Source: Clostridiaceae bacterium
Lineage (GTDB): Bacteria; Bacillota; Clostridia; Acetivibrionales; Acetivibrionaceae
Assembly: GCA_012519925.1 (NCBI GenBank)
Contig: JAAYPF010000093.1
Coordinates: 1 to 48,674, forward strand
DNA length: 48,674 nt
Reading direction: 5' to 3'
The stretch's first letter is position 1, and every line of letters starts with the position of its first letter. Both the position numbers and the translations under genes were made by a program. Below, one piece after another: positions 27,530-45,060 of the stretch. The notes beneath the pieces were generated by a model. That model was not told where the DNA came from. It searched no databases and was given only the letters and a program-made list of their open reading frames with translations.

Positions 27530-27573
27530 AAAGTGTGTAAGTACTGACAACCAATACTTACACACTTTTTTTT
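27530..27573 (+). terminator. Terminator after the GH9-dockerin gene
   Basis: A perfect 14-bp stem pairs 27530-27543 (AAAGTGTGTAAGTA) with 27555-27568 and is followed by a run of T through 27573. Strong Rho-independent terminator between two convergent genes. Confidence 0.88.
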
Positions 27574-27649: not shown

Positions 27650-28507
27650 TTAATCTTTAGGTATACCAAACTGTGCAAGACTACCGTTTTTATATCTATT
27701 ATCACTTGTAACTTCTTTACCTACCCATGAAGGAGGTGTATAGTCATTTGCAAGTTCTTCATTTTTGAATTCCATTTCATAATAAGCTAAGCCTTCTAAA
27801 TCGCCTTTGAAAATATCAATTGCAAAAGTATTTCCATGCTCGTCAGGACCCTGGTATCTTGTCTTATAGATAGTATTTCCTTCAACTTTTTTATATAAAT
27901 TATAGTACTCTTCTTCGGTAATCCAGAAATTACGTTCTTCTCTGACCATGCCTCTATAATCAACACTTGCTTTTATGGTGAGATAAAACATTCTATTATC
28001 CACATTCCTAAGTCTAATTTCTGGTGAAAAATTTATATATGACTGAGTTATTTCATATGTATCTAGAGTTTTAAGATCATAAGGAATATTCTTTGCCTCT
28101 ATTAAGAATTTTCTTTCAATCTCCAGACCTTCCACTTGTGTGGATGTAGGCTTAACTGTAATTGTTGGTGTAGGAGTCGGTTTGCGAGGAAATTCGGTAA
28201 TTATCCCAAGTAAGTATTTTCTGTAAATTCCATAATCAATTATATCTACATCTCCATCACCATTATCATCGGCTGCCTCTAGACCATGTATGTAACTGAA
28301 GTCTTTTACAACTCCAAGAAGGTAGTTTCTTATTTCTCCAAAGTCAATTGAATCAGTTTTTCCGTCACCATTTATATCACCAACTACCAAACCTTTATCG
28401 GTATTGTCAGTGGTAGTTGTTGATGACCTAGCATTTACTGCAAATAAACTTAACATGATTGCAAAACTCACTAAAACCATAGAAATAACAATCTTTGTTT
28501 TCTTCAT
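27650..28507 (-). CDS. Dockerin-CYTH protein: secreted triphosphate tunnel enzyme-like domain
   Basis: 285 residues. Signal peptide about 1-27. Dockerin at about 42-103 with loops DINGDGKTDSIDF and the less regular DDNGDGDVDIIDY. A Pro/Thr linker (108-122) leads to a CYTH domain (about 127-282). The tunnel residues of the family can be picked out: ExExK at E129/E131/K133, RLR at 165-167, K179, EER at 190-192, K215 and R217, D231, and ExE at E244/E246. CYTH enzymes hydrolyse inorganic triphosphate or long-chain polyphosphate or act on nucleotide triphosphates, normally inside the cell; here the enzyme would be outside and on the cellulosome. All catalytic positions appear intact, so it is probably active. 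Start ATG is behind GGGGGGAG. It lies beside two cellulosomal genes. Confidence 0.9.
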   Translation of the reverse strand: MKKTKIVISMVLVSFAIMLSLFAVNARSSTTTTDNTDKGLVVGDINGDGKTDSIDFGEIRNYLLGVVKDFSYIHGLEAADDNGDGDVDIIDYGIYRKYLLGIITEFPRKPTPTPTITVKPTSTQVEGLEIERKFLIEAKNIPYDLKTLDTYEITQSYINFSPEIRLRNVDNRMFYLTIKASVDYRGMVREERNFWITEEEYYNLYKKVEGNTIYKTRYQGPDEHGNTFAIDIFKGDLEGLAYYEMEFKNEELANDYTPPSWVGKEVTSDNRYKNGSLAQFGIPKD

Positions 28508-42741: not shown

Positions 42742-45060
42742 CTATCCACACTTAGAATATCCACAATTTCTGCATACCATACAGCCACCTTCATGTTCAA
42801 CTGGTTTGCCGCACTCGGGACAAGTTGACCGAGACTCTATATCCAACATTTCGTCATCTTCCCAAGAACTTTCTTCCACATCGCTATAAACTTTAGCCGT
42901 CGGCCCTCTGAATTTCTGTTCCTCAGAAATGCTTAATTCTGCCGATGCGATATTGCTGCCATTTTGAATTTTGGCAACTTTCTCAATAAGCCTTCCTATT
43001 GCATCAGGGCATGACATTACTTTGAGTCCCTTTTGCCTAATTGTAGATGGACACCTTATACCTTTTAGCTGTTCTACTATATGTTTGTGGTCTATACCCG
43101 ACCTGAGTGCAATGGATACAAGTCTTGCGGTAGCCTCCGATTGAGAAGGACAACCACCTGCACGCCCGGTATTGGTAAACACTTCACATATTCCGTTTTC
43201 ATCATAATTAACTGTAACGTATAAATTACCACATCCGATTTTTACCTTTTCAGTAAATCCTGTTGCTATCTCTGGTCTTTGCCTTGGAACTATACTGTTA
43301 ACAGATGTTTTGTCCGTCTGTTCAGAACTTAACTCCTGTTCCTTACCTTTAACTTTTCCAATATTTAATACTTGCAAATCTCTACTGCCGTCTCTATATA
43401 TTGTAACACCCTTACAATAAGTCTTGTATGCTTGAAGGAAGACTTCTGATACGTCTTCTTTAGTTGCTTCATTTCTAAGATTTACTGTTTTAGATACAGC
43501 ATTATCAGTATATTTTTGGAAAGCCGCCTGCATTTTTACATGCCATTGTGGTGAAATATCATGGGAAGTAACAAATACCTTTTGAACTGATTTCGGTATC
43601 TCAGGGAACCCATGTATAGTACCCTTATTTGCTATTCTCCTCATTAATTCGTCGGAATAAAATCCGTCAATTACTGCAATTTGCTTGAACAAAGGATTTA
43701 CCTCTATAAGCTCGTCATTGTCCATGACATTTCTGATATAGGATATGGCAAATAGAGGCTCTATTCCACTTGATACCCCTGCAATTATGCTTAATGTACC
43801 GGTGGGTGCAATTGTTGTTGTAGTTGCATTTCGAACCTTCATTCCAAGCTCTTTATAAATACTTTTATCATAATAAGGGAACACGCCCTTTTTATCTGCA
43901 ATTTCAATGGATGCCTTCTTTGACTCTTCTTGAATAAACTGCATAACTTTCTCAGCAAGCAGTATAGCTTTTTGAGAGTTGTAAGCAATATTTAGCTTGC
44001 AAAGCATATCTGCCCATCCCATAACCCCAAGACCTATCTTTCTTGTACCTCTTGTCATTTCATCAATCTCGGGTAACGGATATTTATTTACATCTATTAC
44101 ATTATCCAGAAAATGCACTGCTTTTCTAACTGTCTGACTCAATTTATCATAATCTACCTCAGGAGTTCCGTCGGCGTTTTTTATCATAACACTTAAGTTT
44201 ATAGAGCCAAGATTACATGCCTCATAGGGGAGCAAAGGTTGCTCACCACATGGATTGGTACTTTCTATATCACCTAACAGTGGAGTAACATTATCTTTAT
44301 TTAATCTATCTAAAAATATAATACCCGGTTCGCCATTCTTCCAAGCCATTTCAACAATTAAATCGAATACATATTTTGCATTGAGTTTACCTACAATTTT
44401 GCCCGAATGAGGATCTACTAACTCATAATCTTGGGCTGTCTCTACAGCATTCATAAACTTCTCGGTAATACCAACACTGATATTAAAATTGGTAATGTCC
44501 ACATTGTCCTTTTTGCAGGATATAAATTCAAGAATATCTGGGTGGTCTACTCGGAGTATACCCATATTAGCCCCTCTTCTAGTGCCTCCTTGCTTTACAG
44601 CTTCTGTTGCTGCATTAAAAACCTTCATGAAACTTACCGGTCCACTAGCTACTCCTCCAGTCGAATTTACTGTAGCACCTTTCTGACGTAACCTTGAAAA
44701 ACTAAAGCCTGTACCTCCGCCACTTTTATGTATTAAAGCGGCATTCTTAATAGCTTCAAAAATTCCCTCCATTGTATCTTCTATCGGAAGAACGAAACAT
44801 GCACTCAATTGTCCTAAAGGTCTACCTGCATTCATTAAGGTAGGTGAATTAGGCAAAAACTCAAGATTGAGCATCATCTCATAAAATTCCTGTTCTATAT
44901 CCTTAAGTTCTTCTGAGGATACAAAATCTTTATCTGCAAGTGCTACTGTTTTAGCTACTCTCATAAACATCCCATTAGCATCCTCTAGCAATGTACCATT
45001 TTCATCTTTGGAAAGGTACCTTTTTTCAAGGACTTTTATAGCGTTTTCAGTCAAACTCAT
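42742..45060 (-). CDS. nrdJ: Adenosylcobalamin-dependent ribonucleotide reductase (class II)
   Basis: 772 residues. The catalytic domain has the class II features [22 protein letters not shown] (first active-site Cys in LSAC), [25 protein letters not shown] with the central Cys/Glu radical-site motif NPCGE, and [13 protein letters not shown]. After about residue 590 comes a TSCPD domain ([32 protein letters not shown]) and a C-terminal zinc ribbon with two CxxC pairs (CPECGKP and [10 protein letters not shown]), which may be the reductant-accepting tail. It makes deoxynucleotides from ribonucleoside diphosphates with vitamin B12 as radical source and works with or without oxygen. No B12 riboswitch motif is seen upstream. 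NrdR-like palindromes are at 45084-45129. Confidence 0.95.

Follow-up and report, generated by a model that had tools for sequence, protein, structure and literature searches.

A predicted secreted, dockerin-bearing triphosphate tunnel protein in a cellulosome-producing Clostridiaceae bacterium

What would a CYTH domain do on a cellulosome? Phosphate-chain-splitting enzymes of the triphosphate tunnel metalloenzyme (TTM) type have until now been studied as soluble intracellular enzymes. In the window, by which we mean the whole stretch of 48,674 nucleotides of Clostridiaceae DNA that was analysed, one is predicted to ride on the external cellulose-digesting machine; a complex that is regarded as acting mainly on polysaccharides would thereby gain phosphate chemistry. 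The gene (27650..28507, minus strand, as are its parts listed below) encodes 285 amino acids, in which a signal peptide precedes a type I dockerin and a PT linker leads on to the CYTH/TTM domain; its ATG start codon is preceded by GGGGGGAG, which resembles a Shine-Dalgarno ribosome-binding site. The signal peptide (residues ~1-25, 28433..28507) consists of MKKTK, with an N-terminal charge of +4, a hydrophobic core with a mean KD value of 2.75 across residues 6-24, and a cleavage site judged by eye to lie between VNA and R. The dockerin (residues 43-106, 28190..28381) has two Ca-binding repeats and matches both Pfam PF00404 (E=2.8e-11, residues 43-100) and the solved DocCel5 dockerin of A. cellulolyticus (E=1.5e-14). 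It is followed by a fast-evolving Pro/Thr-rich linker (residues 107-125, 28133..28189) and by the CYTH domain (residues 126-285, 27653..28132), which was delimited by profile, phmmer, alignment and model. The CYTH profile PF01928 scores 21.1 bits, below its curated cut-off of 23.2, so that annotation pipelines can miss the domain; this cut-off is a convention of annotation rather than a biological property, and is outweighed by the fold and by the phmmer match of residues 129-278 to NeuTTM (2FBL/3TYP, E ~1e-20). Downstream, a terminator-like hairpin of 18 pairs (27530..27568, minus strand) separates the gene from a convergent GH9 gene; two hairpins were found in the region versus 0.4 expected.

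The same dockerin-CYTH architecture, including the signal peptide, is found in two other genomes, G005 and G002, whose CYTH domains are 82% and 80% identical, respectively, to that of the window. Pairwise dN/dS values of 0.07-0.23 for the CYTH domain indicate purifying selection. Because the two orthologues share the architecture and the domain is under such constraint, the fusion is not a chance event, and Pfam, phmmer and hydropathy likewise bear out the joining of a signal peptide and a dockerin to a CYTH domain that the preliminary description had reported. At the level of sequence, dockerin plus CYTH is a real new domain combination within a known fold. Accessory non-glycoside cargo with dockerins is known from cellulosomes, namely serpins, expansins, proteases and CotH (PMC12484212, PMC4582956); none of these is a triphosphate-tunnel enzyme. 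In the literature that we covered, which left many subscription papers, supplements and preprints outside its scope, no paper was found that pairs a CYTH domain or triphosphatase with a dockerin, and the cellulosome papers searched yielded, with the terms applied, no mention of CYTH, adenylate cyclase or phosphatase cargo.

Whether the dockerin has a partner depends on the host. Its genome (3.91 Mb, 253 contigs) yielded profile matches to ~75 dockerins (78 matches) and 35 cohesins, of which some are only fragments where a contig breaks off; with so many of both, the host can be counted as a true producer of cellulosomes. A signal peptide, a two-repeat dockerin and cohesins in the same genome are what the sequence of a cellulosomal type I dockerin should offer, and they support the view that a secreted, dockerin-bearing protein with an intact triphosphate tunnel occurs in a genuine cellulosome producer. 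The first repeat carries S53-I54, the usual Ser-Ile pair of the host dockerins. The second carries I89-I90, at whose first position Ser is found in 21 and Ala in 2 of the 23 host dockerins sampled. One binding face may thus be impaired through Ile89; a single face may be sufficient for cohesin recognition.

We then examined whether the tunnel is complete. All aligned tunnel residues are present (E129, E131, K133, R165, R167, K179, R189, E191, K215, R217, D231, E244 and E246), which confirms the earlier claim that ExExK, RxR, K, EER, KxR, D and ExE are intact. The ExExK motif (E129-x-E131-x-K133, 28109..28123) stands at the start of the domain, the RxR motif (R165 and R167, 28007..28015) has E163 two residues N-terminal of R165, as in NeuTTM, and the ExE metal-binding motif (E244-x-E246) lies at 27770..27778. 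The catalytic dyad of NeuTTM, Tyr-28/Lys-52 (PMC3440374), maps onto Y157 and the candidate catalytic lysine K179 (27971..27973). The sequence features of a NeuTTM-type inorganic triphosphatase (dyad Y157/K179, R165/R167, K215/R217, E244/E246) are therefore all present, and the catalytic and tunnel residues are invariant across the three orthologues. An AF2 model of the CYTH domain (pLDDT 94.8) has eight strands and a C-terminal helix, and its best PDB matches in Foldseek are again NeuTTM 2FBL/3TYP (E=8e-14, prob 1.00), with a moderate TM-score of 0.68-0.74. In the full-length model the dockerin came out poorly (mean pLDDT 72.6, residues 75-125 mostly <50).

Published motif rules separate the enzymes that share this fold. 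Class IV adenylyl cyclases (CyaB) have HFxxxxExExK and carry Ala where ExE would have its second Glu, thiamine triphosphatases have a W/YxRxR motif, and TTM phosphohydrolases keep both Glu residues of ExE (PMC8233210). A cyclase is ruled out by the absence of HF before E129 and by Glu at position 246, and a thiamine triphosphatase by E163, where the Trp/Tyr of WxRxR is expected; with no HF, no W/Y at 163 and both ExE glutamates retained, the domain falls into the TTM phosphohydrolase class. NeuTTM (NE1496), the inorganic triphosphatase of Nitrosomonas europaea, is ~35% identical and shares the fold, all catalytic residues, the Tyr/Lys dyad and the Glu at position 163, whereas its solved chain has neither dockerin nor signal peptide, belongs to a different branch and has shorter loops. 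NeuTTM is specific for PPPi, CthTTM being a less specific triphosphatase (PMC3440374), and from these residue rules we infer that the substrate is PPPi, with polyphosphate possible. As to the substrates proposed in the preliminary description, inorganic tri- or polyphosphate thus comes out as the most likely, while a phosphorylated glycan is unlikely, since characterised TTM enzymes cleave tri- and polyphosphate chains (PMC8233210, PMC3440374).

Taken together, these observations lead us to favour, with reasonable though far from full confidence, a secreted, cellulosome-docking, NeuTTM-like TTM. Its most likely reaction, located at the cell surface, is the hydrolysis of inorganic tripolyphosphate to PPi/Pi, perhaps with longer polyphosphate as a further substrate. 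The protein would be exported by the Sec route through its signal peptide and captured by a type I cohesin via its dockerin, and its eight-strand tunnel, intact at the level of sequence and model, would cleave phosphoanhydride bonds in a metal-dependent manner with the K179/Y157 pair, by analogy with NeuTTM. It might conceivably let the cell regain phosphate from the polyphosphate that plant or microbial debris contains, and/or clear strong Ca2+ chelators from around the Ca2+-dependent dockerins. The main difficulty for this predicted activity is calcium. Ca2+ inhibits CYTH triphosphatases, which depend on Mg2+ (PMC3440374), and since dockerins require Ca2+, activity on the complex would be awkward if the enzyme behaves as its known relatives do. 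Our reading also presumes PPPi or polyphosphate at the sites of cellulosome action, which we count against it.

The origin of the domain was approached through its relatives. The TTM of a genome that we take to be C. thermocellum ATCC 27405 (L009) is presumed to be CthTTM. This protein and its family orthologues, including the host copy, belong to the same superfamily and have the same active-site set as the dockerin-CYTH proteins, but they lack a signal peptide, measure ~156-159 amino acids and are 34-41% identical over the domain. Position 163 is Ser or Thr in these cytosolic TTMs (Ser in the presumed CthTTM), in contrast to Glu in the dockerin-CYTH proteins, their membrane-anchored homologues and NeuTTM. 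The presumed C. thermocellum gene adjoins, on inspection of the sequence, a Ppx/GppA-like phosphatase gene (L019:5796-8068), a possible link of the cytosolic branch to polyphosphate.

The nearest relatives outside the family are five CYTH proteins (L029, L105-L108) of another Clostridia family, each with an N-terminal hydrophobic helix. They are ~53% identical to the dockerin-CYTH domain (four compared), with similar loop lengths and C-terminus, and differ in having an N-terminal transmembrane helix as anchor and no dockerin. In the tree, the three dockerin-CYTH and five membrane-anchored proteins form one clade with a support of 100/99, obtained after dropping nine divergent rows that were picked once the first tree had been seen; in that first tree, with the distant rows kept, many forks were open, branches were long and the clade was not resolved. 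The host cytosolic TTM (G000:C176:19575-20012) and the presumed CthTTM lie beyond a 100/100 branch. An N-terminal hydrophobic segment is present in all 8 members of the clade versus none of 80 phage-encoded relatives. The flanking charges put the CYTH domain on the outside in three of the membrane-anchored proteins (G458, G493 and G555); in the other two, G177 and G495, they are ambiguous. On the strength of the clade, the hydrophobic N-termini and the flanking charges, the best reading is that the dockerin-CYTH domain belongs to a predicted extracytoplasmic TTM lineage. The tree rejects an origin from the host's cytosolic TTM. The story implied by the preliminary description, of a cytosolic CYTH domain newly exported, fails with it: the host TTM is only distantly related, and the other members of the branch are membrane-anchored. 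We also rejected a role as phage cargo or in defence (phages often encode relatives, but none of the 80 examined has the hydrophobic segment, and PADLOC gave no match), and CYTH matches in R. flavefaciens as further cellulosomal cases, their frames having no dockerin. Whether PPPi exists at all as a substrate in biology has been called an open question (PMC3440374). If a branch of TTMs is secreted, its substrate would lie outside the cell, where a direct search becomes possible.

Within the family, 3 of the 14 genomes have an intact dockerin-CYTH gene and one, G004, a remnant (L006:1501-1614) of only 33 C-terminal codons, in the same place and with the same neighbours as the intact copy of G005. 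Its start region is joined out of frame to the C-terminal codons, which marks an internal deletion (bases judged by eye). Synonymous differences between the window and G005 amount to 31% in the CYTH domain versus a saturated 75% in a ribonucleotide reductase, the single gene (42742-45060) used as a yardstick of divergence; between the window and G002, a member of the same genus, they are 66% and 59%, respectively. The low CYTH value against the saturated reductase indicates that the gene has probably moved horizontally between two genera. This reductase was chosen because NrdD (window:28789-31134) had to be dropped as not orthologous: its best matches in G002 and G004 are only 50-51% identical, and a search of G005 at E<=1e-50 gave no match. 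The second reductase, by contrast, is 81-88% identical across relatives. A different origin of the window's NrdD is possible. The dockerin-CYTH genes of the three carriers sit in unrelated neighbourhoods, so that a conserved operon of CYTH, CotH and GH9 genes could not be upheld, and no conserved neighbour indicating phosphate use was found among the three loci.

Several other explanations have to be set against a secreted triphosphatase. Outside the cell the tunnel might serve for binding instead of catalysis, gripping metal or polyanions such as polyphosphate, teichoic acid or the ends of nucleic acids and so holding the cellulosome on a surface rich in phosphate: Ca2+ inhibits TTM catalysis while dockerins need it outside the cell, and binding alone would conserve the tunnel residues. 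We regard this as unlikely, because enzyme-derived binding modules often lose catalytic residues, and here the dyad Lys/Tyr and both metal-binding Glu are kept alongside the phosphate-binding Arg/Lys. At the other extreme, the dockerin might have been captured by a mobile CYTH gene to give a fusion with no function. The patchy distribution (3 intact genes in 14 family genomes), the deletion remnant, the horizontal transfer and the frequency of CYTH genes in phages are compatible with such an event, which is nevertheless highly improbable given the dN/dS values and the complete active sites in three species.

Alternatively, the enzyme could scavenge nucleotides, hydrolysing extracellular nucleoside triphosphates (eATP, or eNTP of lysed cells). 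Work by Keppetipola in 2007 reportedly found that CthTTM accepts NTPs, which would count in favour, as does its lower specificity compared with NeuTTM (PMC3440374); the nearest solved relative, however, is the PPPi-specific NeuTTM, with which the domain shares Glu at position 163, and we hold this substrate to be quite unlikely. A further alternative draws on a gene cluster elsewhere in the host genome, where a CotH-dockerin gene has a single VTC gene (PF09359) and a single DUF4956 gene as immediate neighbours; the three run together on one strand (L213:648-5050, in G000:C176) as a possible polyphosphate-related cluster. The VTC polyphosphate polymerase domain also has the triphosphate-tunnel fold, although it belongs to PF09359 and not to CYTH, and the host VTC gene has no dockerin. 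This adjacency suggests that surface polyphosphate chemistry is possible in the host. VTC/DUF4956 would make and export polyphosphate, cellulosomal CotH kinases would use it and the dockerin-TTM would trim it, and the window does hold a second CotH-dockerin gene, with 2.2 kb between it and the CYTH gene. Yet in the other two species no CotH gene was seen close to the dockerin-CYTH gene (in G005, within 1.2 kb on one side), and in the host the polymerase activity of VTC, like export, is only putative, which makes such a system a distinctly unlikely account of the gene. Equally doubtful is its generalisation to an extracellular polyphosphate economy of some Clostridia, mounted on the cellulosome in cellulosome producers, in which VTC/DUF4956 would export, cellulosomal CotH kinases use and a dedicated secreted TTM lineage trim the polymer.

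A few other genes seen during the analysis deserve mention. In one genome from each of two genera, the membrane-anchored CYTH gene follows a gene for a small membrane protein (L121:5799-6805 and L123:90-1100); these small proteins share a similar C-terminus, I-x-YNGK-x-VY-x-H, and have no Pfam match. Elsewhere, CYTH is fused to an ATPase-like region and an apparent second, degenerate CYTH domain in open frames of ~570 amino acids (L039 and L113), and to an apparent guanylate-kinase-type domain in an Aneurinibacillus plasmid protein (L127:2446-3468). The window itself also encodes, at 321-2918, a protein that looks secreted and combines a copper amine oxidase N-terminal domain with RCC1 repeats and a beta-helix region.
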